From: Hydrogenophaga sp.
GTDB taxonomy: Bacteria; Pseudomonadota; Gammaproteobacteria; Burkholderiales; Burkholderiaceae_C
Direction: 5' to 3'
Assembly (NCBI RefSeq): GCF_030373245.1
Contig: NZ_JAUCZF010000001.1
Location: 248,001 to 312,000, forward strand
Length of the DNA: 64,000 nucleotides
Below are positions 6,097 to 26,771 of this stretch, in pieces; the stretch's first letter is position 1, and every line of letters begins with the position of its first letter. The notes beneath the pieces were generated by a model that was given only the letters and a program-made list of their open reading frames with translations, had not been told where the DNA came from and did not search any database. Position numbers and translations under genes: made by a program.

Positions 6097-6184
6097 GGAG
6101 ACTTGGGTGAGTGGTTTAAACCAGCAGTCTTGAAAACTGCCGACCCGCAAGGGTCCGTGAGTTCGAATCTCACAGTCTCCGCCA
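6097..6184 (+). tRNA. tRNA-Ser (anticodon TGA)
   Basis: An 88-base type II tRNA with encoded CCA. The acceptor arms GGAGACT (6097-6103) and AGTCTCC (6174-6180) pair. The anticodon loop within CAGTCTTGAAAACTG places TGA between CT and AA, reading UCA and other serine codons by wobble. The long variable arm (GACCCGCAAGGGTC) and T-arm GTGAGTTCGAATCTCAC are present. Its last 14 bases (6171-6184) recur at 26772-26785, so the gene is the integration site of the downstream island and was rebuilt intact on integration. Confidence 0.97.
6171..6184 (+). repeat. attL: 14-bp core within tRNA-Ser 3' end
   Basis: CACAGTCTCCGCCA, comprising part of the T-arm, the 3' acceptor strand, discriminator and CCA. 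It is identical to 26772-26785. The preceding base differs (T here, A at attR), which sets the core's left border. Confidence 0.82.
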
Positions 6185-6186
6185 AA

Positions 6187-6222
6187 AAAAACCCTAAGCT
6201 ATTGATATACTTAGGGTTTTTT
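6187..6222 (+). terminator. Rho-independent terminator after tRNA-Ser
   Basis: AAAACCCTAAG (6188-6198) pairs with CTTAGGGTTTT (6210-6220) around an 11-base AT-rich loop, followed by more T. It lies immediately downstream of CCA and therefore on the island side of attL, so the element brings its own terminator for the tRNA transcript. Confidence 0.75.
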
Positions 6223-6238
6223 ATTGTCATAAGTACAA

Positions 6239-6261
6239 ACCCGCCCAAAGACCCGCCCAAA
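6239..6261 (+). repeat. Paired 11-mer ACCCGCCCAAA, left end (candidate arm-type sites)
   Basis: Two copies of ACCCGCCCAAA separated by one base (G). The same pair, separated by C, occurs at 26619-26641 just inside attR, in the same orientation. Short direct repeats flanking the core at both ends are the expected form of arm-type binding sites for a tyrosine integrase; that role is inferred. Confidence 0.6.
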
Positions 6262-6278
6262 TCTGAGCCGATATGACT

Positions 6279-6292
6279 TGCAATTGATTGCA
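6279..6292. repeat. Palindromic island repeat, copy 1
   Basis: TGCAATTGATTGCA, with TGCAAT and ATTGCA as inverted arms around TG. It is the only copy near attL, 17 bases inside the paired 11-mers. It is non-coding here. Confidence 0.7.
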
Positions 6293-6635
6293 CTGTCGGG
6301 AAGCGGCTGGCGATCCCATCATGATGGCTTAGCAGCTTGCAGGCTCCAAGGCTAGATTTCAGATTTTGGTCGCGACCTGTCATTTACTTCACTGCGACCG
6401 AGGACAGCTGAAGGCTCGGAGCGAACGTTGAACCGCTGCTTAAACGCCTGGAGAACACATCACAGCCGAGCTGCCCCAACAGGAGGCAGGTCAGATTCAG
6501 CGCTAGCTCAAGATTTATCATCAGTCCGTACATAGGGCGCGGCAGATACGGCATTCGCCTCAAGGGAGACGGTAAACAACAGCCGCTCAATTGCTAGTCG
6601 CAGGAATACCTTGCAGCTCGGACCGAACAACAAGA
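6293..6635. other. Gene-free left end of the island
   Basis: Between the left-end repeats and the helicase gene there is no convincing reading frame or RNA gene. The stretch probably holds the helicase promoter, but no promoter boxes stand out by eye. Confidence 0.5.
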
Positions 6636-9335
6636 ATGACTACTGTTGGCCAACAGATCTCTAGCGCGGACCATGCGATCTGCCAGAACATCAAGTTACT
6701 TGCTGAAGAGCGCAAACTGCTCTCGCAAAACGTACTCTCGCAGCTCAGAAACTTGGTTGAGGGGGTTGCCGTCCGACTCCACCTCGGTAACCCCGATGCC
6801 GAACTTCGCTTCGCTGCAATCGAGCCGGCGCTAGCTTTTGTCAAGAGCAGGGCACAGCTGAGCTTCCTTGGAAAATTTCACAAGCTGATCCAGAAGAGCT
6901 CGTCGCACTACACGCTCGACGGCGACACCTCCGAGCGCCTGATGCTGAAGTACTACGAGTACCTCCATCGCATACGTGACGTGCTAGAGAACGAATGCGG
7001 GATTCGAGTTTTGGCAAACCTGGAAGACTTCCCGGTAGATCTCGACCCTTCACTGCGCGAGTACCACGAGAAGATCGCGGCCAAAATCAAGTCACCGCGT
7101 TTCTCTCGAAGCGACACTGAGGTGCGCGATCGGTATTACATCCATAAGACGCGCCCATTCTTCGTCGGTGGTCGCATCTATTACGAAGTGACATTTTTCC
7201 GGGCCGCCAATAAGGTCAGTAAGTTCGATCGCATCATCGCCTTCACACCTATAGACATGTCGGTCGAGTACTCAGCAATGTTGACACTGCAGAGGGACTC
7301 GATTGAAGTGCTTGGCCAAACGATGCCAATCATGATCATCCGTGAGTGGGAGGTCTCGATTCGGCCGTGTGAATTCGACAACTTCGCACGACTGCTGGGC
7401 ATCAAAACTTCAATTCGAACGAACTCTCAGGAGTACCTGTATTTGATGCGCTGGCTGACCGTTGGGTCGAGAAGTCTGGTCGAGTTGATCGACATGAGCG
7501 AAGCCAACTATGCGGCAATGAGAGCAGCAGGTTCTGGTGAAGGCTTCAAACTGCAAATATTTCCTTGCTTAGACAAGGCAAGACAGGTCGCCAGATCGGG
7601 AGCCCCCGGGTCAAATATTCTTCGATATCTCATGCTGAGGATGCACAACCTGGTTCTCAAATCTCAGCACTCGAGGGACGAATGCAAGCTCCTCTCCGGA
7701 CTGAACCTTCACTACGGCTGCATACCGTTCGACACGATGCCCTTCTGTACCTCTCTTCTCGGACATAACCCTCGGTACCTGGATCTGGTGGAGTGCCTCG
7801 ACGTGACCGAGCGCAAGCACGAACTGCTTGCTCGACGTGTGAGACACAACGTGGAGCAGCATGGAACTCTATATACGACGGCGGCGGACCTAGAGGAGTT
7901 CGGGGAAGTCGAGAAACTGATCGCCACCTACAACCAGCTGCTGTACTACAAACATGTGTCACGACACCTAGTTCTCGACAAGAAGCATGTGTTCATCAAA
8001 GGGTATGAAGACGAAACGGTAGCCATTGTTGAGGCACTCCAGAAGCACGCTTCGGCTCGCATAGACGGATACACCCAAGCCGTCGAGCGTTGGTTCGCAG
8101 AAGCCCCTCGTAGCATCGACGACCCAGCGAAAGTCGCCGCACTCAAGCTGCTATTCAGTCAGTCGCGCGTGGCCCTCCTCTACGGAGCTGCAGGCACCGG
8201 GAAGTCAACGATGGTCGACCACATCGCTCACTACTTCAACGACAAGCAAAAGCTCTTCCTTGCGCACACCAACCCAGCAATCGACAATCTCAAGCGCAAA
8301 GTTACAGCTCAGAACTCCGAGTTCCGAACAATCAACAGTCAGATCAGAAAGAAGTCGTCCAACCAGGAATACGACATCCTCCTCATCGATGAGTGCAGCA
8401 CCGTCAGCAACTCCGACTTTCTCGAGGTGCTGAACAGAACCTCCTTCAAGTTGCTAGTAATAGTAGGCGACGTCTACCAGATTGAGTCCATCCAGTTCGG
8501 CAACTGGTTCGAGATCATCCGCTCTTTCATCCCAAGAACGTCGGTATTTGAGTTGACGACGCCATTCCGAACCAAGAACAACGCACTCTTGGCCTTGTGG
8601 GACGGAGTGCGATCTATCGACAACGACATCGCGGAACTCATGGCTCACAACGGGTACTCGACGGTGCTGGACAAAACGCTGTTCGAAGCCCTAGGCCAGG
8701 ACGAGATCATTCTGTGCCTGAACTACGACGGCCTCTATGGGATCAACAATATCAATCGATTCCTGCAGAGCAGCAACCCTGGCAAGGCGACGACTTGGCG
8801 CGTCTCCACTTACAAGATCGGCGATCCTGTTCTTTTCAACGAAACCGAGCGGTTTCGACCAGTGATCTACAACAACCTCAAGGGTTGGATTGTCGGTATC
8901 GAGCGTACGAAAGAGCGAATCCAGTTTGATGTCGAGCTGGATCGCCCGCTCAGCGAATTTGACGTCAACAACGAAGAACTCGAGTGGATGGGGGGATCGA
9001 CTGTTCGATTTTCCGTGTATGACTCGGGAAGTAGTGACGATGACGACGACCAATTGAACACAAGCGTACCGTTCCAGGTTGCGTATGCGGTTTCGATTCA
9101 CAAGGCACAAGGCCTTGAGTACGACTCCGTCAAGGTCGTGATCACCGATGCTAACGAAGACAACATCTCGCACAGCATCTTCTACACAGCAATAACGCGA
9201 GCGCGTGAGCGTCTACGGATCTTTTGGACGCCTGAGACTCAGCAAGCCGTTCTGCAGCGCCTGAGCCGAGGGGCTAACCCGAAGGACGTCAGTCTTCTCG
9301 CTAGTCGCCGCGGGCTTACGCCAGTCCGGATGTAG
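6636..9335 (+). CDS. Large SF1-type helicase/AAA protein with unrecognised N-terminal half
   Basis: An 899-residue protein. The C-terminal part is a superfamily 1 helicase motor: Walker A GAAGTGKST at about residue 517, Walker B LLIDECSTVS with D585-E586, motif III-like IVGDVYQIESIQFGNW near 611, TPFRTKN as motif IV, and YAVSIHKAQGLEYDSVKV plus FYTAITRARERLRIFW as motifs V and VI. The first 500 or so residues have no domain I can name. The ATG at 6636 is chosen; a TTG at 6591 in the same frame is less likely, and the ribosome site is weak. It is the first gene of the island and lies 140 bases before the Septu-like pair in the same direction, so a functional link is possible but unproven. Confidence 0.75.
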   Translation: MTTVGQQISSADHAICQNIKLLAEERKLLSQNVLSQLRNLVEGVAVRLHLGNPDAELRFAAIEPALAFVKSRAQLSFLGKFHKLIQKSSSHYTLDGDTSERLMLKYYEYLHRIRDVLENECGIRVLANLEDFPVDLDPSLREYHEKIAAKIKSPRFSRSDTEVRDRYYIHKTRPFFVGGRIYYEVTFFRAANKVSKFDRIIAFTPIDMSVEYSAMLTLQRDSIEVLGQTMPIMIIREWEVSIRPCEFDNFARLLGIKTSIRTNSQEYLYLMRWLTVGSRSLVELIDMSEANYAAMRAAGSGEGFKLQIFPCLDKARQVARSGAPGSNILRYLMLRMHNLVLKSQHSRDECKLLSGLNLHYGCIPFDTMPFCTSLLGHNPRYLDLVECLDVTERKHELLARRVRHNVEQHGTLYTTAADLEEFGEVEKLIATYNQLLYYKHVSRHLVLDKKHVFIKGYEDETVAIVEALQKHASARIDGYTQAVERWFAEAPRSIDDPAKVAALKLLFSQSRVALLYGAAGTGKSTMVDHIAHYFNDKQKLFLAHTNPAIDNLKRKVTAQNSEFRTINSQIRKKSSNQEYDILLIDECSTVSNSDFLEVLNRTSFKLLVIVGDVYQIESIQFGNWFEIIRSFIPRTSVFELTTPFRTKNNALLALWDGVRSIDNDIAELMAHNGYSTVLDKTLFEALGQDEIILCLNYDGLYGINNINRFLQSSNPGKATTWRVSTYKIGDPVLFNETERFRPVIYNNLKGWIVGIERTKERIQFDVELDRPLSEFDVNNEELEWMGGSTVRFSVYDSGSSDDDDDQLNTSVPFQVAYAVSIHKAQGLEYDSVKVVITDANEDNISHSIFYTAITRARERLRIFWTPETQQAVLQRLSRGANPKDVSLLASRRGLTPVRM

Positions 9336-9475
9336 GGCGGGATTCCGCCGGCCGGTCTTTGACTAAATCATTTCCCACTTGAATGGAAGAACTGGGTTAG
9401 CACCGCGTCCACCGAGCGCGTGGCCTGCGATGTACTCGAAATGGACACAATTCAACATCAGGGAGGCACAGTGCG

Positions 9476-10729
9476 ATGGCTAAAAAGGAAGCAGATGATG
9501 GTTCGGATCGAGGCGGGATGTCAGCTCAGGGAGTGCTATTCAATCGTCTGTGCGCAAGCATCGATCGATCGCTGGCCGGAAAGCGCGGCCCCTCCTTCAC
9601 GTACTTGATCGGAAACAACGGAACGGGAAAGAGCCGACAACTTGCACGACTTGCCGAGCATTTTGGGGAGAGCGAGGCGAGTCATGCACCAAAGGTCGTA
9701 GGGTGCATCTCGAACGCTGTCTACGATCGTTTTAAGCTGCGTTTGCACGCCCGGATCCAATATCTTGGGGCCCGGACGTCGGGCAACGCGGTGTTCCACA
9801 GCGCGATCAGTCGACAACTGGCCAAGATCATTCTGAAGGGTATGGCGAGAGACAAGAAGTCAGTTGATCGTCTAGAAGAGGCGCTGGAGCTTCGATTCGA
9901 ATTTTCCTTCGGGAAGGTCGGCGGCGATTTAGCCAAGCTCATAGACCGGCGCAAGCTGAAGAACGCGAAGATTTCGTCGGTCTTGCCGGTTGAATCGAGA
10001 AAGACCCTCGCCACACTTATGGGTCAGCCGCTGTCCTTCACAAAATTGACCAGGCAAAAAATCGCCGTTTTGGCTGAATTCCTCGACCTTAATCCCGACG
10101 TGCAACTATCCGTCGTGAAGAACGCCAGCGAACAGCGGATTGACTTCAATCAACTAAGCACGGGAGAGCAGAACCGTGTTCTGACGTACGCAAAGGTCCT
10201 GTCTGTTGCTGGCGAGAGCAGTCTGATCCTCATCGACGAACCCGAGATCAGTCTGCACCTACACTGGCAGATGGGGTTCCACTCTGCAATCGTCGACCTG
10301 CTGCGTAACTTCAAAAGGTTTCACGTCGTCGTTGCAACGCACTCGCCTATCATCATTTCTGAGGGAGCCAAGGGCCCCGACGCATCGAAAGCTGCGGTCG
10401 TAGTGCTAGAGGCGAATGATGACCTGGGTGCCTCCTCCGACGTGGATATACGTGAGCACCCCTTCAGTGAAATTTCCAGCCATGAGCGACTGGTGCTTGA
10501 CCTGTTCGACACAGCGACCTACAGGACCCCAGCCGTGGATTTCGAGATCACCGACGCCATCTTGGAAGCGGTCGATCATCCTCAACTGCTAGAGCAAGTC
10601 CTGAAGCGCCTTGAAGCGCTTGAAGGCAAAGAAGGTCTGACCAGAGACGATTTAACGCACATCAGGGAAGCGATTCGACTTATTCAGAATCAGTCGTTGA
10701 CCAGTGCAAACTCGGTGCGAGTCGAATGA
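9476..10729 (+). CDS. PtuA-like ABC/OLD-type ATPase (Septu-like)
   Basis: A 417-residue ATPase. Walker A GNNGTGKS lies at about residues 46-53. An ABC-type signature follows in NQLSTGEQNRVL, then Walker B LILIDEPEISLHLHW near 254 and the switch motif VVATHSPIIIS near 287. The long helical insert between Walker A and the signature is typical of RecF/SMC/OLD-like ATPases. The start is the ATG at 9476, with a GGGAGG upstream at somewhat long spacing. The last four bases overlap the HNH gene (ATGA). An ATPase of this size followed by an HNH protein is the architecture of the Septu anti-phage system, in which PtuA and PtuB form a complex. No retron reverse transcriptase is nearby. Confidence 0.72.
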   Translation: MAKKEADDGSDRGGMSAQGVLFNRLCASIDRSLAGKRGPSFTYLIGNNGTGKSRQLARLAEHFGESEASHAPKVVGCISNAVYDRFKLRLHARIQYLGARTSGNAVFHSAISRQLAKIILKGMARDKKSVDRLEEALELRFEFSFGKVGGDLAKLIDRRKLKNAKISSVLPVESRKTLATLMGQPLSFTKLTRQKIAVLAEFLDLNPDVQLSVVKNASEQRIDFNQLSTGEQNRVLTYAKVLSVAGESSLILIDEPEISLHLHWQMGFHSAIVDLLRNFKRFHVVVATHSPIIISEGAKGPDASKAAVVVLEANDDLGASSDVDIREHPFSEISSHERLVLDLFDTATYRTPAVDFEITDAILEAVDHPQLLEQVLKRLEALEGKEGLTRDDLTHIREAIRLIQNQSLTSANSVRVE

Positions 10730-11451
10730 ACGAGCTGTGCGAATCTCCCGCCGAGACCGGGGTTCTTAAACGGCTCACTGACCTCATCGAGGATGGCACC
10801 CTGTCCGGAACAAATGCATGGACGTGCTTCTCCAAACCCCTAGCATCGCATCAGTTCGGCGAGCCCATCGTCCCCCCAGTTGTCTTTTCCTCCGACGAAC
10901 AGAAGTCTTTGAAGGCGATCAAAAAGCGGCTCGTGGCGCTCTTGGTTAAAAGGGGAAAAGGCGCATGCGCATATTGCAAGCGACCGGTCGGACGCTATGG
11001 CTTTGGGTGGCACCTAGAACACGTGTACGCAAAGTCGCGCTTTCCTTCCAAGACGTTCATGCTGTCGAATTTGACGATCGGTTGCGTCGACTGCAATAAG
11101 TGGAAGGCCACCTCGGTAGATAAGACATCCGTGGAAGGGCAACTTGGCATCATCGACCCAACGAAAGAGAACTTTCGCTATGGTCAGTTCTTGAAGTACG
11201 TCCACATTGCCACCGAGTCTCTGAGCCTCGTTAAATACATGCCACAGCACCCCCTCGGCAAGGAAACCTGGACGCGTCTCAGGTTTTCGGAGATCGAAAG
11301 GGTCACTCTAATTGACAGCATGAACGCCGAGATGGCCAGCCTTCACGATCGTATGAATGATTTCTTGCTTGATCGAGATCCGAGTGATGAGGGTGATGAG
11401 GTAGCGACTCTGTTGCGCAAGCTGCAGAGTAGCATGTACCGACTTAGTTAG
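10726..11451 (+). CDS. PtuB-like HNH endonuclease (Septu-like)
   Basis: A 241-residue protein with a complete HNH module at about residues 80-126: CAYCKRP provides the first zinc knuckle, HLEHVYAKSRFP the catalytic histidine segment, and LSNLTIGCVDCNKWK the Asn and second knuckle. The flanking regions are helical and unrecognised. Translation is coupled to the ATPase gene by a four-base overlap. In Septu the HNH partner is the effector nuclease, and I infer the same role here. Its 3' end runs eight bases into the tail of the convergent small gene at 11444-11704. Confidence 0.72.
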   Translation: MNELCESPAETGVLKRLTDLIEDGTLSGTNAWTCFSKPLASHQFGEPIVPPVVFSSDEQKSLKAIKKRLVALLVKRGKGACAYCKRPVGRYGFGWHLEHVYAKSRFPSKTFMLSNLTIGCVDCNKWKATSVDKTSVEGQLGIIDPTKENFRYGQFLKYVHIATESLSLVKYMPQHPLGKETWTRLRFSEIERVTLIDSMNAEMASLHDRMNDFLLDRDPSDEGDEVATLLRKLQSSMYRLS

Positions 11452-11704
11452 ACCACCTGCAAGGCATGGTGAAACTGCACCCCTGCAGTTGATTTTCGTG
11501 CCGCTCGCGGCGCACTAGGTCGAGCGACTGATTGCTGGCGGATAGCGTGAGTTGTGCCCGTTCGGGCCAAGGACCGCAACGCTGCTGAGCCGTCACGATG
11601 TTGGTGACGTTACCTGCAACTTTAGAGAGCCGGTAGAACCGCCGAATGTCCTCAGCCGTTAGTGCCTTTTCCAGTGAAATGAGTAGGTGCTTGCGTGTTG
11701 TCAT
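11444..11704 (-). CDS. Small protein, third gene of an overlapping operon
   Basis: An 86-residue protein beginning MTTRKHLLISLEKALTAEDI. I do not recognise a family. It is supported by its position: its ATG (11704-11702) overlaps the TGA of the preceding gene by four bases, exactly as that gene overlaps the one before it. The N-terminal half is predicted helical with regularly spaced leucines (HLLISLEKALTAEDIRRFYRL), and the rest is polar. Its stop lies inside the last codons of the convergent HNH gene. It may be a partner or inhibitor of the putative nuclease upstream, but that is speculation. Confidence 0.55.
   Translation of the reverse strand: MTTRKHLLISLEKALTAEDIRRFYRLSKVAGNVTNIVTAQQRCGPWPERAQLTLSASNQSLDLVRRERHENQLQGCSFTMPCRWSN
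11473..11496 (+). terminator. Stem-loop, weak terminator candidate after the HNH gene
   Basis: AACTGCA (11473-11479) and TGCAGTT (11484-11490) form a perfect stem with a CCCC loop, followed by GATTTTC. It lies 22 bases past the HNH stop codon, inside the coding region of the convergent small gene. The T-run is short, so termination would be weak. Confidence 0.4.
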
Positions 11705-12528
11705 TGAGGAACTGGCGCGGCGACCGCTTGTGCCGTCGGCAACGCAGGGCCTAGTGCCGCTGCCCTCCAGGAAAGCCTGCGCTGTGCGCTCTTCAACTCC
11801 CATGTCCCTGAGTGCATGCCCACCACGATGTTCAGCCGGTAGGCTGTCTCCAATGCCTTGATCATTTTCAAGTGAAGCGCTCTGGCCGTTCCGCCCACGA
11901 ACAGAGTTGGCGCAAGGTGCCCCATGGCTGCATCAGCCACCTGAGGCCCGTTAGGGTACCAAGCGTGAGCAGTCACCAACATACCGATGAAGTTGACCAT
12001 GAGCTCTGGAAACGGATTCATGGACTTGCACTCGTGCGCGGCAACGACTTGGCTGCTCTTGACCGAGAACAACTTCCTTTTGCCTTGGGCGAAATCCTTC
12101 AGAATCTCCGCATTGATCGTCGCATCTTTGACTAGGACAACTAGATCAGGCGTGAAGCGGATGTCTGGGTCAACGTGAGACTCGATCCGCACTTGCTGCC
12201 TGACCTCGAACTCGCCATCAGATCCAGTCAAGCGCACGAACGAAAAGTTTGCAGGATTTCCAGATGGACTGGTCAGGTATCGATACTCCCCCTCGTGGAG
12301 GTGTTCAAGCGTCGGCGTGTAGCCTTGCTTCTTATAAAAGTACAGGAGCGCTTGGAAGCAAGCTATCTCAAACGCGGCCGATAGTTGCCGCTCGGTCGCG
12401 CTTAGGACAAGCGTGTGATCCTTTGCGAACTTCGCCATCAAGTCTTTCGCAGTGGTCAGCCACGCTGGGTCGACGGGAGGAGTCGCAGCACGTTTCGGTG
12501 CCGCCTTTCTTTTCGCAAATATGGTCAT
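11701..12528 (-). CDS. Uncharacterised protein with possible PD-(D/E)XK nuclease signature
   Basis: A 275-residue protein and the middle gene of the three-gene unit. I recognise no named family. An acidic residue in a helix (TERQLSAAFEIACFQALLYF, E54), then FTPDLVVL (P127-D128) and, 38 residues later, VVAAHECKSM (E166-C-K168) follow the spacing of a PD-(D/E)XK nuclease core. Between the last two there is SVKSS, also common near such cores. The C-terminal 30 residues are Ala/Pro-rich and probably flexible. The gene overlaps both neighbours by four bases. A restriction-like or defence role is inferred from motif and location. Confidence 0.6.
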   Translation of the reverse strand: MTIFAKRKAAPKRAATPPVDPAWLTTAKDLMAKFAKDHTLVLSATERQLSAAFEIACFQALLYFYKKQGYTPTLEHLHEGEYRYLTSPSGNPANFSFVRLTGSDGEFEVRQQVRIESHVDPDIRFTPDLVVLVKDATINAEILKDFAQGKRKLFSVKSSQVVAAHECKSMNPFPELMVNFIGMLVTAHAWYPNGPQVADAAMGHLAPTLFVGGTARALHLKMIKALETAYRLNIVVGMHSGTWELKSAQRRLSWRAAALGPALPTAQAVAAPVPQ

Positions 12529-12986
12529 TCGCCGCGCTCGCTCGGCTCGTTGGTGGCGCCGTACAGCCGGAAGACGATGTCTTCACATGTGTTGAGATTC
12601 AGATGTTCGCGCTCGAAACCGAGGCTTGACATCATCTCATTGAAGTCCTTCAAAGCGTTTAGTGTGGCACCCGAGGTCTTGCTACTGAATGACGCACTAC
12701 CGTGACGAATGGCAACAGACTTGCCGAGACCTTCGGGGCCGCCACGACTTGCGCCCTGCAGTGGCCCGAGTACCTGCTGGTAGATGCTGTTCAACACAAA
12801 TAGCAGCTGAAGCCGCTCTTCGCTCCAACCATTACGACGGAGAGCAAAAACACGCCTATCTTCTTTGGCAGCGAGGAACGCCAGTTCGCGCTCCATCGCT
12901 TCGATTCTCCGAAGAACGCCTTTCCGAACTGGCTCAGTAAGGGCCATAAGGACAGGATTCGCGATCGTTTTTATGTTCGGCGTCAT
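12525..12986 (-). CDS. Uncharacterised protein, first gene of the three-gene unit
   Basis: A 153-residue protein from the ATG at 12986 (MTPNIKTIANPVLMAL); a TTG four codons earlier (12998) is an alternative. The N-terminal half looks like a long charged helix (VRKGVLRRIEAMERELAFLAAKEDRRVFALRR) followed by WSEERLQLLFVLNSIYQQVLG. The second half contains a Gly/Ser-rich linker and FNEMMSSLGFEREHLNLNT. No family is recognised. The ATGA overlap with the next gene indicates a single operon, separated from hsdR by only 68 bases on the same strand, so readthrough from the RM operon is possible. Confidence 0.55.
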   Translation of the reverse strand: MTPNIKTIANPVLMALTEPVRKGVLRRIEAMERELAFLAAKEDRRVFALRRNGWSEERLQLLFVLNSIYQQVLGPLQGASRGGPEGLGKSVAIRHGSASFSSKTSGATLNALKDFNEMMSSLGFEREHLNLNTCEDIVFRLYGATNEPSERGE

Positions 12987-13053
12987 GAGAAAGCTCAAGA
13001 GTTAACGAAGCAAGGCAGACTATCCAGTTGGAGGTAGTTCTCAATGTGAACGG

Positions 13054-16458: not shown

Positions 16459-16492
16459 TGTTTCTTGTTCTCCCTGATTGGCGTCGCTGAAC

Positions 16493-18202: not shown

Positions 18203-18220
18203 TGTTTTCCCTGAGTTGAT

Positions 18221-19420: not shown

Positions 19421-21549
19421 ACCCCCAGCGCCTCAAAGCTAGTCTGAATTTTTTGGGCCAAATCGATCGACTCGCGGTTCAGGTCGGTAAGCTCCGAGTG
19501 AATGTCGAGCAGGGTTTGCTCAAAGTCGAAGTCGTCATCTACTTCAGCCGGGGCAACGCCAACAAAACGGCCGGGAGTCAGACTCCAGTCGGCAGCTTCA
19601 ATCTCTGCGCGGCTAACCACTTTGCACAGGCCCAGCACGTCTTGCATTTCAGCTTTAGGGAAGCGATCTTGTAGCCAGGCGATCTGGCGGTGCACATAGC
19701 CGCAGGCCTTGAGCTGTTCGACGGCGGCCTTGCGTTCTTCGTCAAGCTGCTTGATGAGCTTGCTGATGGCGCGGCGGTCGTAATACTCAGCGGCCTTTTC
19801 ATGGCCCGCCAGCTCTTGCGCCAGTTGCGCAGCGCGGGCAGCGAGCTTGTAGAGCAGGTCCACCTGCTTGATCAAGCCGCGTGCCGATTCGGCCAAGGGG
19901 TCGAAGGTTTGGCGGGTGGCGTGTTGGGCTTTGTTGGTTTGGGGTGGCTTAGCGTTGCTCTTGCAGAAAGTCGCCAGCCCTATCACCAAGGCGGCGCGGT
20001 CGGCCACATAGGCGGTGGCAGCGCTGGTCCATTCGGCCAAGGCATCGGCCAGCCCCTGGCGCTTGTCCTGTGGCAGGGCATCGAGACCCTTCACGCTGTC
20101 CAGGAAGGGCGGAAAGGGCAATTGACTAGCGGTCAGCGTGGTCTCAAAGGCAGTAAGAGCCGAGGCAACGGTGGAGGCATCTGCGCTCAGCCGCTCGATA
20201 TAGCTTTGCACCAACCCCAGGAAGCGGTCTTGTTCGCCTCGGTACAGCCACACGATGGCGGCCAGGTTCGCTTGGTGCTCTGGCGAAAAGTCGTAGATCT
20301 TGCGGGTGACTTTGCGGTAAACGTTGCGGGCGTCCAGCATCAGCACCTGGTCTTTCCGTGAGTCAGGCTTTGAGCGGTCAAAGTGCCACAGCTCACAGGG
20401 CACGGTACGGGTGTAGAAAAAGTTGGAGCGGATGGCGACCATCACGTCCACATCGCCGGTTTCCACCAGCTTGCGGCGCACCTCTTTTTCGCCATGGCCG
20501 GCGCTGCTGGCCTGGGAAGACATCACAAAGCCGGCGCGGCCCTTGGGGGACAGGTAGCTGTGAAAGTAGGAGATCCAGAGGTAGTTGCCGTTGGAGACCT
20601 GTTTGTCTTTGTTGACGCCGGGCAGGCCAAACGGCAGGCGGCGATCGGTCTTGATGGATTCGGCGTCAACCTTGTCCACGTTGAACGGCGGGTTGGCCAT
20701 CATGAAATCGACGTTGCCCCACAGCGGGCGGCCGTCTTGAAGACGGTGCTTGTCTTCGTAGAAGGTGTTGGCTTCCTGAATGTCGCCTTCCAGGCCATGC
20801 ACGGCCAGGTTCATCTTGGCCAGGCGGATGGTGGTAGGGGTCTTTTCCTGGCCATAGAAGGTGGCCCGCTTCATGGTCTCGAAGCCTTCGTGCTCAATGA
20901 AGTGGCTGCTCTGCACGAACATGCCGCCCGAACCGCAAGCCAGATCGGCCACCACACCATGGTCAGGCTCGATCACATTGACCAGCGTTTGCACCAGCGA
21001 GGGCGGCGTAAAGAACTCGCCATTGTCCTGGGCGCCCTGCATGGCGAACTTCATCAGGAAGTACTCGTAGATGCGGCCAAAAACATCGCCGGTAGCGGTG
21101 CGCAGGGCCTGGGAGTCAAAGCAGCGCAGCAGGTTTTCGAGAAGCTTGTTGTCGAATCGGTCGTAGTCCTTGGGCAGGCTTCCCTGCAGCGGCGGAAAGT
21201 CGGCTTCGATGGCGTTCATGGCTGCGACCAGCGCGCCGCCCAAGCTGGCGCCAGAGGGAAGGTTGAGCAGCGTGTCGTATCGCGCTGCCTCAGGCAACAA
21301 CAGCGCGCGGCGCTTGATGAAATCGGCCTTGCTCAAAGGGCGCTTGGGCATGGTGCCTGCGGCCTGATCCGCTTCAATAGCTTGCAGGGCGGACTGGTAG
21401 CGGTTGGTGGCGTGACGCAGGAAGATGACACCCAGCACCGGCATCGAATACTCAGTAGCGGTGAGGTTGGAATTGGCACGGAGCTGGTCAGCGGCTTCCC
21501 AAAGACTGGTTTCTATTTTCGCGATGTTTTGTAGAGCGTTGGCGGTCAT
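19417..21549 (-). CDS. hsdM: Type I restriction-modification system, M (N6-adenine methyltransferase) subunit
   Basis: A 710-residue methyltransferase and the first gene of the operon. The N-terminal helical domain (ETSLWEAADQLRANSNLTATEY) is followed by the SAM site DLACGSGGM at 202-210 and the catalytic NPPF at 286-289, with FFTPPSLVQTLVNVI just before. The C-terminal 250 residues form a helical region that contacts S. It is longer than E. coli HsdM but usual for this subclass. The start at 21549 is 258 bases from the recombinase gene; that spacer holds no convincing gene and should contain the operon promoter. Confidence 0.96.
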   Translation of the reverse strand: MTANALQNIAKIETSLWEAADQLRANSNLTATEYSMPVLGVIFLRHATNRYQSALQAIEADQAAGTMPKRPLSKADFIKRRALLLPEAARYDTLLNLPSGASLGGALVAAMNAIEADFPPLQGSLPKDYDRFDNKLLENLLRCFDSQALRTATGDVFGRIYEYFLMKFAMQGAQDNGEFFTPPSLVQTLVNVIEPDHGVVADLACGSGGMFVQSSHFIEHEGFETMKRATFYGQEKTPTTIRLAKMNLAVHGLEGDIQEANTFYEDKHRLQDGRPLWGNVDFMMANPPFNVDKVDAESIKTDRRLPFGLPGVNKDKQVSNGNYLWISYFHSYLSPKGRAGFVMSSQASSAGHGEKEVRRKLVETGDVDVMVAIRSNFFYTRTVPCELWHFDRSKPDSRKDQVLMLDARNVYRKVTRKIYDFSPEHQANLAAIVWLYRGEQDRFLGLVQSYIERLSADASTVASALTAFETTLTASQLPFPPFLDSVKGLDALPQDKRQGLADALAEWTSAATAYVADRAALVIGLATFCKSNAKPPQTNKAQHATRQTFDPLAESARGLIKQVDLLYKLAARAAQLAQELAGHEKAAEYYDRRAISKLIKQLDEERKAAVEQLKACGYVHRQIAWLQDRFPKAEMQDVLGLCKVVSRAEIEAADWSLTPGRFVGVAPAEVDDDFDFEQTLLDIHSELTDLNRESIDLAQKIQTSFEALGV

Positions 21550-21807
21550 TGAGTGGGTGCTATTTTGCGAACGTGGCGGCCTTCTCGCGCGCTTTGAGCG
21601 CGATTATGAATGACGGATATCAGTACACGCCCGGCGTTCGTTGCCACTTGTTTTTCCGCGCTTTGGGACACTTTCCCATTGTTTGATCGTCTGAAAGATG
21701 CGCGCCGATTGAACCGCTGCAAGTTGCTTTGGCCCTAGCCTCGCCATGCGAGAGGATCTAGCCGTGCATAGTCGCCGCCTTGTGCACCTGACCTGCATGC
21801 GTGCTTA

Positions 21808-22842
21808 TCAAAGCACACCCCCTGCAGCATTGCTGTCAAACAGACTCGCGTCTCTGATGTATCGGTTCAACATGGCCAGCGACTTGTGTCCTGTCTGCTG
21901 TTGAATCTTGTGTACCGCCACACCTGCCTGGATCGCGCTCGTCACCAGCCCAGATCGCAGGCTGTGCCCCGAGATGTTGTTAGCGCTCAAGCCCACCGCG
22001 CTCGCACGGGACTTCAAGATCAGTGCAATTGATTGCGCACTTAACGCACTGCTTCTGATTCTCCGGTGCCGCGTCACCGAGCGGAAAACTGGCCCCTCAA
22101 CAATGCAGGCCAAACTCAGCCAGTTTTCTAGCGCTTTCACCGGGCAGGCGCTTGTCCTGCCCCACGGCACGCCGATCTTTCGGCCGGCTCCCTCTTGGTC
22201 GGTCTTGCTTGTGCGCAAATGGATCACCAAGCCCTCTCGAACAAACTCAACATCCCCGAAATCCAATGTGGCAAGCTCAGACCTCCGGAGTGCCGCGGCA
22301 AAGCCCACCAGGATCAACGCGCGATCCCGCACACCCCTTAAGCCTTCCGTCTTTTCGGTCATGGCCAAAATGTCCGCTTTGAGCAATGGGCTCACCTGAC
22401 GCTGGCTGGTGCCTTTGACGCGACGCACGCCCCGCATCACCGTTCTGACCAAATCTGTCTTGGCTGGGTCGGCATGGCCTTGGCTGACATGGGCACGGCC
22501 GATGCCCACCACGCGCCGAGTGATGGTGTGAGCCGATGCCGTGTCGGCTCGGTCTGCGATGTACGCGGCCAAGGTTTCCGGACCGCACGGAATGACACCA
22601 CCCCAAGCCAGAAAATCCCGCAAGTCCTGCTGGTAGGCACGCCTCGTGTTGTCCGCAATGGCGGCGGTCAGGTACTGACTCACCGACGGAGGGGTGGGCG
22701 ACGCTCCGGCTGCAATTGATTGCACTGCGGCCACTGCAATCGATTGCGTCCCACACATGCCAGACGGCAGTGCGTTCAGGGAAGGCTCAACTACCGATAA
22801 CTGGGTATTACCGCTACTTACCTTGGGCAAAGGTCTATCCAT
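21808..22842 (-). CDS. Tyrosine recombinase (second one in the island)
   Basis: A 344-residue site-specific recombinase. The catalytic set is visible: Arg in GFAAALRRSELATLDFGDV, the H-x-x-R of ISGHSLRSGLVTSAIQAGV, the His of QQTGHKSLAMLNRY and the Tyr of that same segment. The SAM-like core-binding domain covers ISQYLTAAIADNTRRAYQQDLRDFLAWGG. The first 60 residues are low in homology and contain two QSIA tetrapeptides encoded by copies of the island palindrome; a third QSIA lies at about residue 270 (ALSAQSIALILK). The start overlaps the upstream gene's end by eight bases. It may be the recombinase of a nested element or a resolution enzyme. Confidence 0.9.
   Translation of the reverse strand: MDRPLPKVSSGNTQLSVVEPSLNALPSGMCGTQSIAVAAVQSIAAGASPTPPSVSQYLTAAIADNTRRAYQQDLRDFLAWGGVIPCGPETLAAYIADRADTASAHTITRRVVGIGRAHVSQGHADPAKTDLVRTVMRGVRRVKGTSQRQVSPLLKADILAMTEKTEGLRGVRDRALILVGFAAALRRSELATLDFGDVEFVREGLVIHLRTSKTDQEGAGRKIGVPWGRTSACPVKALENWLSLACIVEGPVFRSVTRHRRIRSSALSAQSIALILKSRASAVGLSANNISGHSLRSGLVTSAIQAGVAVHKIQQQTGHKSLAMLNRYIRDASLFDSNAAGGVL
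22024..22037. repeat. Palindromic island repeat, copy 2
   Basis: TGCAATTGATTGCG, differing from the full palindrome in the last base. It lies inside the recombinase gene and encodes QSIA on the coding (minus) strand. Confidence 0.7.
22711..22748. repeat. Palindromic island repeat, copies 3 and 4
   Basis: TGCAATTGATTGCA (22711-22724) and TGCAATCGATTGCG (22735-22748), start to start 24 bases apart. Both are inside the 5' part of the recombinase gene and both encode QSIA in frame, giving QSIAVAAVQSIA in the protein. Confidence 0.7.
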
Positions 22843-23572
22843 GATGCGACCCCCATCGCAGCGAGCCGTTAGTGGCCGAGGGACCGAATTTAGGACGTGA
22901 TGCCATCGGCAGAGTTGGGTACACGTTTTGCCAGTAGTCGGCCCCCATCACGACCTCCTGCTTTCTCTCGCCCATTGCAGGGCGACCCCACTCTATCCAA
23001 CACCGTCTTGGCTTCGGACCGATGGTCAGGCAAAACACGTTGCTGCGCTTCCAGGTCATGCACAGATCTACATCCAAATGGTGCATGACCCAATGACCAA
23101 ACGCCCGTTTGCCAACGTAGCCGTCTTCCACGCAGAAGGGCAGGATGTCCACCCGGGCATATACCTCATTGCCAAACGTTCCTCGGTCCCAATGGTGAGG
23201 ACTGCTGGAATTGCAACGGAAAGATTTGGAGACTTTCGCTAAATCCAAGTCCATGGATTCACGCGATTGGTAGCCGTAGGTGACAGCGAACCGTCCGAAC
23301 TCAGCCAGAATAGGCTCTAACAAGCGATCACATAACACTTGACCTGCCTTGATGGCTTCCGCAAGATCATCAGGAAAATTACTTAAACCCTGCGCCGCTG
23401 ATGAGGCACAAAACAGAAAATCACGCAAAATGAAGTTTTTAGACAGACGAGTCTTTGCAACTCGATCTATGAAACCTGCATTCGGCGACTTCTTGAAAGA
23501 CTTTAATCTGTGCTCGTCAAAAGCCAACGAATCATCGCTTGTTTTTGTGGTTTGCGGCGTGGTCGTTTTCAT
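22835..23572 (-). CDS. Uncharacterised protein, weakly M15-peptidase-like
   Basis: A 245-residue protein. The central part reads LLEPILAEFGRFAVTYGYQSRES, then SSPHHWDRGTFGNEVYARVDILPF (H126/H127 and D142), then WVMHHLDVDLCMTW. This order (a GY-x-S strand, a His with an Asp 15 residues on, and a later His) recalls the zinc site of M15 D,D-carboxypeptidase folds, but the spacing is not canonical and I cannot confirm the family. There is no signal peptide; the N-terminus is polar. The gene precedes and slightly overlaps the second recombinase gene, suggesting coexpression. Its role in the island is unknown. Confidence 0.5.
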   Translation of the reverse strand: MKTTTPQTTKTSDDSLAFDEHRLKSFKKSPNAGFIDRVAKTRLSKNFILRDFLFCASSAAQGLSNFPDDLAEAIKAGQVLCDRLLEPILAEFGRFAVTYGYQSRESMDLDLAKVSKSFRCNSSSPHHWDRGTFGNEVYARVDILPFCVEDGYVGKRAFGHWVMHHLDVDLCMTWKRSNVFCLTIGPKPRRCWIEWGRPAMGERKQEVVMGADYWQNVYPTLPMASRPKFGPSATNGSLRWGSHHG

Positions 23573-23693
23573 TGACTATTATACCTAATAGCAGGCGTTT
23601 TATCAATAAAACTCGAATATTTCGCCTCTCACTAGATCTTTGATCCAGGATATGTATTTGGGCAAAAGCAGCTCAAGCTCTGGCACTGAAAGA

Positions 23694-23778
23694 TGCAATC
23701 GATTGCACTAGAGTTCAGCACAAGTTTGTCACTAGGACCTAGGATAAGGAGACCCCCGCCCGTCTGCAACTGATTGCA
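23694..23778. repeat. Palindromic island repeat, copies 5 and 6
   Basis: TGCAATCGATTGCA (23694-23707), a perfect 14-bp palindrome, and TGCAACTGATTGCA (23765-23778), with one arm mismatch. Both lie in the 213-base spacer between the Rep-like gene's stop (23786) and the M15-like gene's start (23572). That spacer contains no gene and should hold the promoter of the M15-like/recombinase pair. Confidence 0.7.
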
Positions 23779-23785
23779 GATTGGA

Positions 23786-24703
23786 TCACGGAACGATAGC
23801 TGCAAACGCAGCAGGCCACCCAGCCCAGGTCTTTGAGGAGTCCCACCAATCCACGCTGGCATCGTCAAGCCGAGTCTTGTAGAGCTTTCTGTTCTGTTTG
23901 CTACACGCACCTAGAGCCTGTGCGGTACCGACACAGCGGCACTGCTCGACAAAAGCAAGCCAAGCCTCCTCTTGTGAGGTACTCAGTAGCTTTTGAACCG
24001 AGAGTATCCTCAAACCATGGAAGGGATTTTCCAATCCCTCTAAGAGCTCATAGGGGCTCATGCCGGTTTTTCGGAGTCTGACCTCTACTCTTATTAGCTT
24101 CTCAAAGTTTGATCCACTTTGCTCTTCGACCAACTGCTTAGCCTTGTCGTACACACAAAACCTTCTCACACTTGCGACAGAACCAAGGTTGGTTGATCCT
24201 TTTTCGCCATCCTTTTTACCAAAATAAATTTTAGAAAGTTTTACATTGGGATGGTACGGAAAGAATTCAGGGTAGGCTTTGTTAACGAAATCCTTGGCAA
24301 TCTCCAAATAGCTCACTCGAGATTGAAAAAGGAGCTTCTCATAGGCCCATTCCGAGAGTAAAACATTCAATATATGTTTAAAGTTTTCGAACTCTTCTTG
24401 CTTGAATTTGGTGAGATACAGGACTAACTTGAAATACAAGTGCTTGGATTTCGTGCTTCCTGCAATTATTTCTGCAGTTTTTCTATCCGGCGACTGCGAA
24501 AAATCCAACTGCGTATAGTAATCCTTCTTAATTAGTTTGATCTTTCCTGTAGGAAATATGTCCTCTTGAAGACTTAGTATTTCATACAACTGAGAAATGA
24601 GGAGGCCAAAAAGTGTTTTGCTAGGAACAGCCACTGTGACGTGGATCCGATCTATTACCAAAGGTAGAGACACAGACACTACATGCACTCCTTTGCAGTT
24701 CAT
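23786..24703 (-). CDS. Rep-like replication initiation protein (RstA-type), AT-rich
   Basis: A 305-residue protein from the ATG at 24703. Features resembling phage/plasmid rolling-circle initiators of the RstA/Rep_trans type are YLEIAKDFVN in the middle, then GSTNLGSVASVRRFCVYDKAKQL, then LIRVEVRLRKTGMSPYELLEGL: the usual 'D-F ... GS ... YDK ... R-E-R-R' sequence order. The family call is moderate only. The coding sequence is strikingly AT-rich and Lys/Phe/Tyr-rich compared with every neighbour, a sign of separate origin. If it is a Rep, the island could replicate after excision. Confidence 0.55.
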   Translation of the reverse strand: MNCKGVHVVSVSLPLVIDRIHVTVAVPSKTLFGLLISQLYEILSLQEDIFPTGKIKLIKKDYYTQLDFSQSPDRKTAEIIAGSTKSKHLYFKLVLYLTKFKQEEFENFKHILNVLLSEWAYEKLLFQSRVSYLEIAKDFVNKAYPEFFPYHPNVKLSKIYFGKKDGEKGSTNLGSVASVRRFCVYDKAKQLVEEQSGSNFEKLIRVEVRLRKTGMSPYELLEGLENPFHGLRILSVQKLLSTSQEEAWLAFVEQCRCVGTAQALGACSKQNRKLYKTRLDDASVDWWDSSKTWAGWPAAFAAIVP

Positions 24704-24842
24704 CAAACCCGCTTACTAGTAACGGGTTCATATGTGTTCAACGACCAATCGGAAGACCGCCTCGAAGACATTGCAACCGGAAGACACTCGTCATCGCTTG
24801 CATCGTAGATCGAGTAAGGATCGCGCATGCTTTGTGAGTCCC

Positions 24843-25154
24843 TCAAATAAAGGGAGAAATCTGCGTGGTGATCCAGTAGGGAGCGGGCCGTTTGCCCGTA
24901 CCGATGTGACCTGCCGGTTCAGGAATCCTTCCGGCCTTTCGCAGCTTATAAAATTGGGCCGCTGATACGGCAAACAGTGCAAGCATATGACCTGTGCGCA
25001 GACGCATTGGCAGATCCATGCGCACTCCGTCAAGTGGAAGTCGCTTTGCTTGCGGTTTTTTGGGTTGCCCAGCTGCTGCTGGTGCCTCCACTGCTGAGGC
25101 AGTGGGGAGTTGGGAAGCGTGTGCTTCGCCTTTCGAGACATAAGTGAGTGCCAT
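24843..25154 (-). CDS. AlpA-like helix-turn-helix regulator/excisionase candidate
   Basis: A 103-residue protein. After a 45-residue Ala/Pro-rich leader comes LRTGHMLALFAVSAAQFYKLRKAGRIPEPAGHIGTGKRPAPYWITTQI, which has the layout of AlpA/MerR-type DNA-binding domains: a helix-turn-helix ending in a 'G-R-I-P-x-P' wing and a terminal W. Such proteins next to P4-type integrases often regulate excision. It lies between the Rep-like and integrase genes on the same strand, 142 bases downstream of the integrase stop. It is a candidate binder of the dispersed palindrome, but nothing in the sequence proves that. Confidence 0.7.
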   Translation of the reverse strand: MALTYVSKGEAHASQLPTASAVEAPAAAGQPKKPQAKRLPLDGVRMDLPMRLRTGHMLALFAVSAAQFYKLRKAGRIPEPAGHIGTGKRPAPYWITTQISPFI

Positions 25155-25296
25155 TTTTCTGCCCTATGCAAATGCAAAACAAAGCAGGGCCTTTGGCACA
25201 AATATGGAGTGCATTAGAAGCCCCGCGGCTTTCCTCTGCACTCCATTGACTTATGAGGTTGCCTTATTGTATCAAGCAATCCACTATCGTCAACAG

Positions 25297-26559
25297 TCAC
25301 TTATTCTTTGAGTTCAGTTGAATTAAATTATTCTCTTGCGGTTGCGGTAAATCGACGAAATCTGCCCAATCCTGCATAAGTTTTCGGCGTTTTTCAATTT
25401 GAGTGCCATGCATATAGGCAGCTTCAACCTTACTTTCCAGAGTGTGAGCAAGCGCCGCCTCCAGCATGTCCCGAGGGTGAGAGGTGTGTTCCCCGCCCCA
25501 TGTTCGGAAGGTTGACCGAAATCCGTGGGGAACCGCCTGAACCTGCATTCGACGCATCACCGCGGTGAGTGTCATGTCAGAAAGCACCTTACCCCGTGGG
25601 GAGGGGAAAACGAGGTCGGTGCCTGCCATCGGTTCAATCGTGTCAATGAGCTGCAGGGCCTGCTTTGACAAGGGAACGGTATGCGGCTTACCCGCCTTCA
25701 TCCGTTGACCAGGGACTGTCCATAGCCCTTTTTTCAGATCGAGTTCCTTCCACGTTGCTCCTCGAACTTCGCCACTCCTTGCGGCGCAGAGGACAGCGAA
25801 TTCAAGAGCACGTGCTCCCGTCCCCTCTTGCTGGCGCAGCGCCTGCATGAAGGAATACATCGCAACGTAGTGAATCGCCTTGTGGTGTGCGGGCTTCTGA
25901 ATCTTGTTCGGGGCCGGCAGAGCCGCGTCCAAGTAGCCTTTCCAACGCGCCGGGTTGAGCCCATCGCGGTAGCCATGAACCGTTGCCCAGTTCAGCACCG
26001 ACTCAATCCGCCCGCGTAAGCGGCTTGCAGTTTCAGTTTTTGCCTCCCACAGCGGAGCGTTGTTCTTGTCGGCCTGCTGCTGGGTCAGCACAGTCATGAT
26101 GTGGGCAAGTGCAATTGATTGCACTGGCAGCTTCCCGACGATTGGAAAGGCGTAGGTTTCTAGGGTAGCCAGCCATTGCGCTTGATGTTTGGCGTTCTTC
26201 CACTCCTCTTTGCGTTCGGAAATGAAGGTTCTTGCGCACCATTCAAAGGTCCTCAAGCTGGCTTGTTCAGCTAGCAACGCGGCCTTGGACGCCTGCCTTG
26301 CCGCCACTGGATCGCCCCCCTTCTCGATCGCCCCTCGTGCCTCTCTGGCTTTGTTGCGAGCGTCAGCAAGAGACGTCGAGGGGTACCCCCCCAGTCCGAT
26401 TTCCCGGCGCTTGCTGCCCATCCTGACCCTAAGCAGCCAAGTCTTACCACCCTTAGCGGACACGTCCAGGATCAAACCTGCCACCCCACCTACGGCATGA
26501 GCACCAGGAGGAAGATGCTTGACCTCCAGAGCGCTCAGCTCCTTTGCTACCTTGGGCAT
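25297..26559 (-). CDS. int: Tyrosine integrase of the island (P4 type, DUF4102)
   Basis: A 420-residue integrase. The N-terminal arm-binding DUF4102 domain is seen in GKTWLLRVRMGSKRREIGLGGYPSTSLADARNKA. The catalytic residues lie in LCAARSGEVRGATW (Arg), VPHGFRSTFRTWGGE (His-x-x-Arg), ALAHTLESKVEAAYMHG (His and Tyr). The start at 26559 has GGAGG upstream; an ATG at 26604 would add MQSIAVGSKDTGGVD but sits inside a palindrome copy and has no better ribosome site. Another palindrome copy encodes QSIA at the edge of the core-binding domain. It lies about 210 bases from attR and should catalyse exchange between attL and attR. Confidence 0.95.
   Translation of the reverse strand: MPKVAKELSALEVKHLPPGAHAVGGVAGLILDVSAKGGKTWLLRVRMGSKRREIGLGGYPSTSLADARNKAREARGAIEKGGDPVAARQASKAALLAEQASLRTFEWCARTFISERKEEWKNAKHQAQWLATLETYAFPIVGKLPVQSIALAHIMTVLTQQQADKNNAPLWEAKTETASRLRGRIESVLNWATVHGYRDGLNPARWKGYLDAALPAPNKIQKPAHHKAIHYVAMYSFMQALRQQEGTGARALEFAVLCAARSGEVRGATWKELDLKKGLWTVPGQRMKAGKPHTVPLSKQALQLIDTIEPMAGTDLVFPSPRGKVLSDMTLTAVMRRMQVQAVPHGFRSTFRTWGGEHTSHPRDMLEAALAHTLESKVEAAYMHGTQIEKRRKLMQDWADFVDLPQPQENNLIQLNSKNK
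26110..26123. repeat. Palindromic island repeat, copy 7
   Basis: TGCAATTGATTGCA inside the integrase gene, encoding QSIA (LPVQSIALAHI) on the minus strand. Confidence 0.7.
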
Positions 26560-26589
26560 ATCTACCCCTCCTGTGTCCTTTGAGCCGAC

Positions 26590-26603
26590 TGCAATTGATT
26601 GCA
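26590..26603. repeat. Palindromic island repeat, copy 8
   Basis: TGCAATTGATTGCA, 31 bases upstream of the preferred integrase start, so probably within the integrase promoter or leader. It lies 15 bases inside the right-end paired 11-mers, mirroring the arrangement near attL. Confidence 0.7.
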
Positions 26604-26618
26604 TAGGAGCAAGAGCTT

Positions 26619-26641
26619 ACCCGCCCAAACACCCGCCCAAA
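26619..26641 (+). repeat. Paired 11-mer ACCCGCCCAAA, right end (candidate arm-type sites)
   Basis: Two copies of ACCCGCCCAAA separated by one base (C), in the same orientation as the pair at 6239-6261. They lie 130 bases inside attR and 59 bases upstream of the preferred integrase start, so integrase binding here could also repress its own gene. Confidence 0.6.
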
Positions 26642-26771
26642 ATTTTACGCTAGAGTGTAGATACCTGAACACATCTGAAGAGATATTTCTGATTTTTTTC
26701 GTTCTATATCAATGACTTGCTTGAGCGATAGGAGATGACTGGAAATCTTAGAAAGCTCTAGGAAAGCGGAC

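Follow-up and report, generated by a model that had tools for sequence, protein, structure and literature searches.

A 20.6-kb island integrated at a serine transfer RNA (tRNA-Ser) gene of a Hydrogenophaga sp. shares a 14-bp palindrome, TGCAATTGATTGCA (the tag), with related tRNA-Ser elements and with a group of siphophages in which it is repeated dozens of times. The island lies in a 64,000-nucleotide stretch of contig NZ_JAUCZF010000001.1 (the window; positions are counted from its first letter), and the account that we favour, with moderate confidence, is that TGCAATTGATTGCA is an address tag spread over whole phage genomes, recognised by a predicted phage DNA-binding protein and copied by satellite-type islands. 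Since the palindrome is confined to the island in its host and abounds in the phages, the probable reason for its presence there is that it lets a phage of this kind handle the island, or lets the island hinder the phage.

The tag is confined to the island in its host genome

All eight places at which an earlier note on this DNA had located a 14-mer proved to be real, five of them matching the reported pattern, TGCAATYRATTGCA, exactly and three with one mismatch (Table 1), and none of 100 shuffles (0/100) gave as many copies as the window. Four copies are intergenic, three lie in the gene for a second tyrosine recombinase (TyrR2) and one lies within the integrase gene, int. Also as described there, copies stand at mirrored places beside paired 11-mers at the two island ends, and none with at most one mismatch occurs in the defence cargo or in the chromosomal arms of the window; outside the island the window has three words at two mismatches. 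The whole-genome count that the note had called for revealed no chromosome-wide density: in the host genome (3.86 Mb, 10 contigs; assembly 90.85% complete), the island holds all five exact copies and eight of the 11 with at most one mismatch, and the reversed pattern, used as a control, is absent (0). When any centre was allowed, the island had five exact copies and eight at up to one mismatch, against maxima of 0 and 1 for 179 permuted half-site palindromes. We conclude that the feature is real and specific and that TGCAATTGATTGCA is its true form.

The site marks a family of tRNA-Ser elements

The 11-mer pair alone, scanned in one genome per species (84,980 species), gave 18 matches at 17 loci. 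Those in L110 (a Deltaproteobacteria metagenome-assembled genome, MAG) and L119 (Wenjunlia) match the pair, are not element ends and lack a tag; the remaining 16 matches are element ends, one from a MAG labelled only Proteobacteria and the others from genera that we take to be Comamonadaceae. At 15 of these 16 ends a tag with at most one mismatch starts less than 60 bp from the 22-mer, its TG centre always in the same direction, and both ends of the window's island show the same arrangement of 11-mer pair and tag, with TG in the same direction. L115 (Rhodoferax) is the sole end without a tag; L111 is cut at the locus end, and its tag was read in L136. According to ARAGORN, a tRNA-Ser gene adjoins seven of ten left ends.

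Counting in related islands, which the earlier note had also proposed, showed that compact relatives of 6-8 kb hold 9-11 copies each. The complete compact element of Acidovorax GW101-3H11 (6.4 kb) has eight exact and two one-mismatch tags, that of C. testosteroni SWCO2 (6.5 kb) four and five, and that of Acidovorax 210-6 (about 8.4 kb) six and five. In whole-genome counts, which cover a set of 12 genomes less G457 and G459 (and the Rhodoferax MAG G463 in part), every exact site falls within the element in GW101-3H11 (8/8), SWCO2 (4/4) and C. odontotermitis (4/4). The C. odontotermitis S00124 element (L062 7597-10912) is a 3.3-kb element at a tRNA-Ser gene with both ends and five tags, four of them exact; Int, AlpA and Rep were not found in it, no integrase elsewhere in that genome exceeds 52% identity, and the element may be mobile in trans or stranded. 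G463 has exact tags on at least five contigs (its loci include L121, L122, L123 and L124), apparently two or more tagged elements in one genome.

Farther afield, four loci (L061, L077, L121 and L122) bear the same tag beside distant AlpA, Rep, Int or TyrR2 relatives, and the 11-mers were not found near these tags at up to one mismatch. At 19 loci with integrase relatives of 51-59% identity (L042-L060), the flanks of about 1.5 kb hold no tag with one mismatch or fewer, and a single two-mismatch word occurs at L047. Among 399 genomes of the family, exact matches occur in 57, with five as the highest number in any one. In IMG/VR, a scan for the 11-mer pair gave 0 matches, and a Rep alignment gave 12 pattern matches, none of them a confirmed relative. 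Taken together, these data support a site that is strictly conserved, element-wide, recurrent in related islands and rare in host chromosomes, and it marks a family of tRNA-Ser elements.

The tag is conserved as DNA, with sharp edges and a fixed centre

We pooled 77 element sites (74 distinct with their flanks) from 19 of 22 scanned loci, picking them at up to one half-site mismatch, such that the arms were selected, the centre and flanks were free and homologous elements are not independent. These sites have sharp 14-bp edges and no information shared in the flanks; once oriented, about 69 of 74 have TG at the centre, and positions 5 and 6 tolerate C. The one-base variants tolerated in elements and in phages overlap (TGCACTTGATTGCA, TGCAACTGATTGCA and TGCAATTGATTGCG). 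Element tags are found in several reading frames and between genes, and in relatives some stand about 40-70 bp before the starts of terminase-like genes and about 35-50 bp ahead of a conserved gene of 161-180 amino acids. Selection on the peptide was considered and rejected: copies often read QSIA in frame, yet QLIA, AINC and CNQL too, and it is therefore the DNA that is conserved.

The centre also bears on whether the tag is an operator of the host, such as one bound by a LacI-family regulator, clustered in the island by chance. TGCAATCGATTGCA adjoins LacI-type genes in three of ten loci inspected by eye (L040, L064 and L069), but those copies are CG-centred and single or few, whereas most element tags are centred on TG; moreover, the window's chromosome has no exact copy outside the island, no lacI-type gene was recognised in the island, and we give this explanation almost no credence. 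The CG-centred TGCAATCGATTGCA of the three loci is a look-alike, probably an operator of the adjoining LacI-type regulators.

An island-encoded regulator does not account for the site

The earlier note had proposed an element-wide binding site for the AlpA-like regulator, the Rep-like protein or a recombinase; the element-wide, conserved site stands, and the proposed binders are not supported, not having been found in some tagged elements or, for AlpA, having diverged. A regulator encoded by the island itself, whether AlpA-like, a small XRE repressor or Rep, with the tags as its operators on the element's own genes, would fit the single tag found upstream of int at each right end that bears one, the other tags shortly before gene starts and the presence of AlpA-like genes in most elements. 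However, no one protein is common to all tagged elements, the AlpA-like helix-turn-helix diverges where the site does not (the proteins of L121, L061 and L077, loci that keep the site, are only 27-34% identical to the window's), and the phages with an evenly spread tag, described below, gave no match to the island AlpA, Rep or XRE. Nor does alpA occur wherever the sites are, being absent from the C. odontotermitis element, which also lacks detectable Int and Rep, and a Rep homologue was not found in the GW101-3H11 element with its eight exact sites. An island-encoded binder is therefore not supported, and we regard operators of this kind as improbable. The small XRE repressor of compact elements was rejected as the binder, as neither the window's element nor that of C. 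odontotermitis yielded it; an Extensimonas locus that has it bears only the left-end tag (at most one mismatch) in 8.7 kb.

Siphophages of one group have the 14-mer as their main dispersed repeat

The earlier note had offered, as another possibility, a short repeat specific to this family of islands, which is wrong, for the tag is also the main dispersed repeat of phages of about 95 kb. From the IMG/VR exact-14-mer matches listed we chose 16 records, mostly for several matches each, and counted 30 exact tags in G466, 47 in G467, 39 in G468, 23 in G469, 20 in G470, 10 in G471, 50 in G472, 23 in G473, 9 in G474, 2 in G475, 4 in G476, 3 in G477, 22 in G478, 4 in G479 and 1 each in G480 and G481. 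Seven of these records are 93-100 kb long, five with 22-50 exact tags (in contigs of 93-98 kb) and two with 9 and 4. G473 and G472 gave identical scores in the protein comparison, and G473 may be part of a genome closely related to G472. Among named phages, Stenotrophomonas phage DLP_5 has 26 exact tags, the tag being its commonest 14-mer, and Summit has 26, DLP_3 24, RcZahn 5, RcTiptonus 2 and PG28 1; TM16, Y1_11, KarBoss, DanielleIgnace and JP1 have 0. The reversed pattern gave 0 in all 16 IMG/VR records and in 10 further phage records. The tag-rich group consists of ~93-98-kb siphophages, namely Delepquintavirus DLP_5, DLP_3 and Summit with their IMG/VR relatives. In PLSDB, phage-plasmids with a DLP_5-like capsid amount to six records, all below 60% identity.

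Within these genomes the tags are spaced more evenly than random in five of five phages (coefficient of variation 0.46-0.59 vs 0.94-0.97, p at most 0.0035), and their orientation is mixed in most, with 8 plus and 18 minus in DLP_5. At up to one mismatch, DLP_5 has 35 sites, 27 inside genes and 8 intergenic vs 1.5 expected, with a median distance to the gene edge of 82 bp, vs 169 bp at random. Tags placed so regularly, for the most part in coding sequence, are easier to reconcile with marking of the whole genome than with promoter control as the only role; their excess between genes and the tags ahead of int would allow a part in control as well. G466 (IMGVR_UViG_3300037261_000012) has 29 of its 30 exact tags on one strand, unlike most other phages.

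Such spacing, together with the strand bias of G466, could also belong to Chi-like or priming sites of phage recombination and replication genes (SF2 helicase, exonuclease, RecA and resolvases), which the elements would use for helper-driven replication, and in a comparison of 13 phages with DLP_5 those genes were found in 11-12, with an exonuclease and a resolvase named there by PHROGs. Chi, however, is unlike a near-perfect dyad in mixed orientation, which is what most of the phages carry, and this explanation appears quite improbable.

In related phages that lack the TTGA centre, a dispersed palindrome is built on the same half-site, TGCAA, with a centre of its own in each: CAATCGATTGCA in RcTiptonus (56 copies), GCAACATATTGC in TM16 (8), GCAACAAATTGC in Y1_11 (7, with 80 of 100 kb covered) and GCAATTAACTGC in KarBoss (10, not its top 12-mer). 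RcZahn has two TGCAA-type variants of 5-6 copies each, not its top 10-mer, and the commonest words of G474 differ from the tag and are GC-rich. The centres of RcTiptonus, TM16, Y1_11, KarBoss and RcZahn look like a lineage-specific code.

Candidate phage binders of the tag

The first candidate for a phage-encoded binder is the family of the MerR-like protein DLP05_060, whose gene is located between the SF2 helicase and RecA genes. It is strong in DLP_5, G466, G467, G468, G470 and G472 and weak in G478 (E 6e-4) in the same place, so that it stands at its locus in seven of the seven TTGA-tag phages with at least 20 copies for which the region was in hand (a set that excludes G473). The KarBoss homologue is diverged (E 1e-15), and RcTiptonus has a helix-turn-helix-like protein there, judged by eye; the family was not seen at its locus in RcZahn, TM16, Y1_11 or G474, all with few copies.

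The second candidate, the ParB-like DLP05_107, has a ParB_N domain and is encoded one gene away from the large terminase gene; ten of 14 phage sequences have strong homologues, all ten with TGCAA-type repeats. The tags could then be parS- or Noc-like loading sites of this protein, for phagemid partition or for coating and marking phage DNA, which the islands borrow as SGI1 borrows the parS of IncC plasmids. A strict short dyad with even spacing is what is seen, the isolation of DLP_5 as a phagemid is recorded in the accessible parts of two papers (PMC5834331; PMC7326821) and, by analogy, SGI1 would offer a precedent. However, a cognate ParB does not accompany the site wherever it is used: the tag-rich G466, G472 and G478 (30, 50 and 22 tags) match the ParB domain only weakly, in two cases through longer proteins that are built differently, and RcZahn, TM16 and Y1_11 have a closer ParBc (45-47% identity) yet other centres. 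We consider parS-like loading by DLP05_107 unlikely, if worth keeping in view. ParBc as the sole binder was rejected on the weak matches in the three many-tag phages. The DLP05_060 family follows the tag more closely than DLP05_107 does, a correlation in a small and related set.

Genes common to elements and phages

An island protein, P245, resembles a protein of the 50-tag phage contig G472 (Table 1) and has weak similarity to a G478 protein; besides P245, the only window protein with a match in the 14 phage sequences is a DUF262-like one (G467, E 1e-5). Ten Pseudomonas phage records of 85-95 kb, SM1 and PaMx31 among them, also yield distant matches to P245 (26-27%). In the compact elements, a protein of 240 amino acids (GW101-3H11) and one of 235 (SWCO2) match a DLP05_006-type protein, mainly through their N-termini, in 10 and 11 of the 14 phage sequences, respectively, and the gene for this type of protein sits between the protease and capsid genes. 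Relatives also encode terminase-small-subunit-like helix-turn-helix proteins (weak PHROGs matches). Because compact relatives have such head-like and terminase-small-subunit-like proteins, a satellite relation is likely for them; for the window's island it is possible.

Anatomy of the island

At each end, two 11-mers ACCCGCCCAAA in the same direction, presumably integrase arm sites, are followed further inward by one tag, and the 14-bp tRNA-Ser 3'-end duplication stands at both ends; relatives have the same kind of tRNA 3'-end repeat, judged by eye. Relatives place the int start at the ATG at 26559 (MPKVAKEL...), and the tag at 26590 therefore lies upstream of int, outside its first codons. 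The longest open frame (25297-26604) begins 15 codons before this conserved start. The cargo matches models of PDC-S53, PtuA/PtuB and type I restriction-modification. In the tagged element of Acidovorax sp. 210-6, a 492-amino-acid cargo protein (L136 6191-7669) matches the candidate defence model PDC-M36A. An empty-site search with the right flank, covering 60 genomes from the genus, returned short partial matches only.

Table 1. Features of the island and of its integration target, in window coordinates
Feature	Position	Strand	Remarks
Island, attachment repeat to attachment repeat	6171..26784	.	tRNA-Ser 3' end CACAGTCTCCGCCA at 6171-6184 and 26771-26784
tRNA-Ser gene	6097..6184	+	TGA anticodon; integration target
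Paired 11-mers, left end	6239..6261	+	ACCCGCCCAAA at 6239 and 6251; presumed integrase arm sites
Tag	6279..6292	+	exact; left end, intergenic
Defence cargo, tagless	6591..21549	.	PDC-S53 helicase, PtuA/PtuB-like pair, type I restriction-modification, DUF262-like proteins
TyrR2	21808..22842	-	second tyrosine recombinase
Tag	22024..22037	+	one mismatch (terminal G); in TyrR2; same variant at same protein position in L122
Tag	22711..22724	+	exact; TyrR2 N-terminal region
Tag	22735..22748	+	one mismatch (terminal G); CG centre; TyrR2 N-terminal region
P245	22835..23572	-	52% identity over 217 residues to protein of G472
Tag	23694..23707	+	exact to TGCAATYRATTGCA; CG centre; intergenic, Rep/P245
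Tag	23765..23778	+	one mismatch (C at position 6); intergenic, Rep/P245
Rep-like protein	23786..24706	-	PF02486, E 3e-5, under curated cut-off
AlpA-like small protein	24843..25154	-	named by resemblance; no Pfam match
Tyrosine integrase (int)	25297..26559	-	arm-binding domain; start corrected
Tag	26110..26123	+	exact; within int
Tag	26590..26603	+	exact; right end, intergenic, 30 bp upstream of int
Paired 11-mers, right end	26619..26641	+	ACCCGCCCAAA at 26619 and 26631

How the tag may work

We propose that TGCAATTGATTGCA serves ~93-98-kb siphophages as a genome-wide recognition tag, read by a phage-encoded DNA-binding protein. The island belongs to a family of integrative elements at the tRNA-Ser 3' end whose compact members look like phage satellites. 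In these elements the tag stands next to each attachment arm, ahead of int and of other genes, and within genes. On phage infection or induction, the phage protein would bind the element's tags and bring the element, which may be dependent on a phage of this kind, under the control of the phage machinery for excision, replication, packaging or partition; a multicopy element with many tags would, in addition, draw some of the binder protein away from the phage.

Several observations weigh against this proposal. The island's tags are not spread evenly across the whole element as in the phages, since the 15 kb of cargo are free of tags with one mismatch or fewer (one word has two mismatches), and of three compact elements only one shows clearly even spacing (p 0.17, 0.16 and 0.035). 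No head or terminase-like gene was found in the window's island by tblastn. The 399 family genomes contain no tag-rich phage, and one exact tag in the Rhodoferax MAG (L124) lies amid ordinary chromosomal genes. In IMG/VR, Int relatives (four loci) and TyrR2 relatives (three loci) are tagless at up to two mismatches. RcZahn, TM16, Y1_11 and G474 have small numbers of TGCAA-type repeats without DLP05_060 at its locus. Finally, two int-internal sites are no more conserved than the gene average (percentiles 0.89 and 0.60), which, with many copies often inside genes, is also what a short repeat spreading or inherited without function would give. The latter explanation is contradicted by the sharp edges, by flanks without shared information, by place and direction fixed at the element ends, by the even spacing and by related phages that retain the half-site with a different centre, and we hold it very improbable.

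A broader proposal, which we put forward tentatively as a possibility, is that phages of ~80-100 kb label their genomes with a TGCAA-half-site palindrome of lineage-specific centre as a distributed "self" address for replication or packaging, in place of, or in addition to, a single pac/cos site or origin, that islands forge this address (5-11 tags in 3-20 kb) for carriage and that the centre of an island's tag predicts the phage lineage it exploits. If the centre is lineage-specific, the helper of a satellite would be predictable from sequence alone. The phage address reading would tie an orphan, defence-carrying island to one phage group through a short DNA code, and it reopens the role of dispersed palindromes in phage genomes, now with named candidate binders.

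Comparison with known systems

Satellites of the P4 and phage-inducible chromosomal island (PICI) type combine an integrase, an AlpA-like protein, a tRNA target and small size with defence cargo. The elements described here resemble them in integrase, AlpA-like protein, tRNA target and defence cargo, and compact relatives add small head- and terminase-like genes; the window's island differs in lacking recognisable genes of the latter kind, and use of a helper is here only presumed. Integrase and attachment sites are present at a size around or below the ~20 kb of such satellites (20.6 kb in the window, 3.3-8.4 kb in compact relatives), and genes that would redirect a helper's capsid or terminase are not apparent in the window and are represented by weak matches in compact relatives.

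The stoperators of L5-type cluster A phages are many short conserved sites throughout a temperate phage genome, and they are asymmetric and follow transcription. The tag, in contrast, has dyad symmetry and mostly mixed orientation, with 27 of 35 DLP_5 sites inside genes, and does not show the asymmetric, transcription-oriented, gene-edge pattern of stoperators. Cluster A stoperators are also described in the accessible part of the paper on cluster O mycobacteriophages (PMC4351075). According to that part, cluster O phages carry a 17-bp palindrome, TGTTCGGNNNCCGAACA, in more than 30 dispersed copies per phage and of function called unknown; it resembles the tag as a dispersed dyad with invariant arms, about a third of the copies in genes and a ParB-like protein present, and differs in sequence and in concentrating toward one genome end, with no mention there of an island or satellite that shares the repeat (PMC4351075).

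Searches of an open-access library gave no report of this 14-mer in a phage or island context. Delepquintavirus DLP_5, DLP_3 and Summit have the identical 14-mer in 24-26 exact copies, far above chance, but they are phages, not islands, and the repeat is not mentioned in the accessible part of one paper (PMC7326821). Besides the cluster O repeat, the nearest precedent is SGI1, an integrative element with short dyad sites that are also scattered in the backbone of its helper: in the text available, it carries mimics of the parS of its IncC helper plasmid, with 14 sites in R55 and 2 in SGI1, bound by the helper's ParB (PMC10954446). The SGI1 helper is a conjugative plasmid with proven ParB binding, whereas here the presumed helper is a phage and the binder a candidate, and the copies number 20-50 per phage and 5-11 per element.

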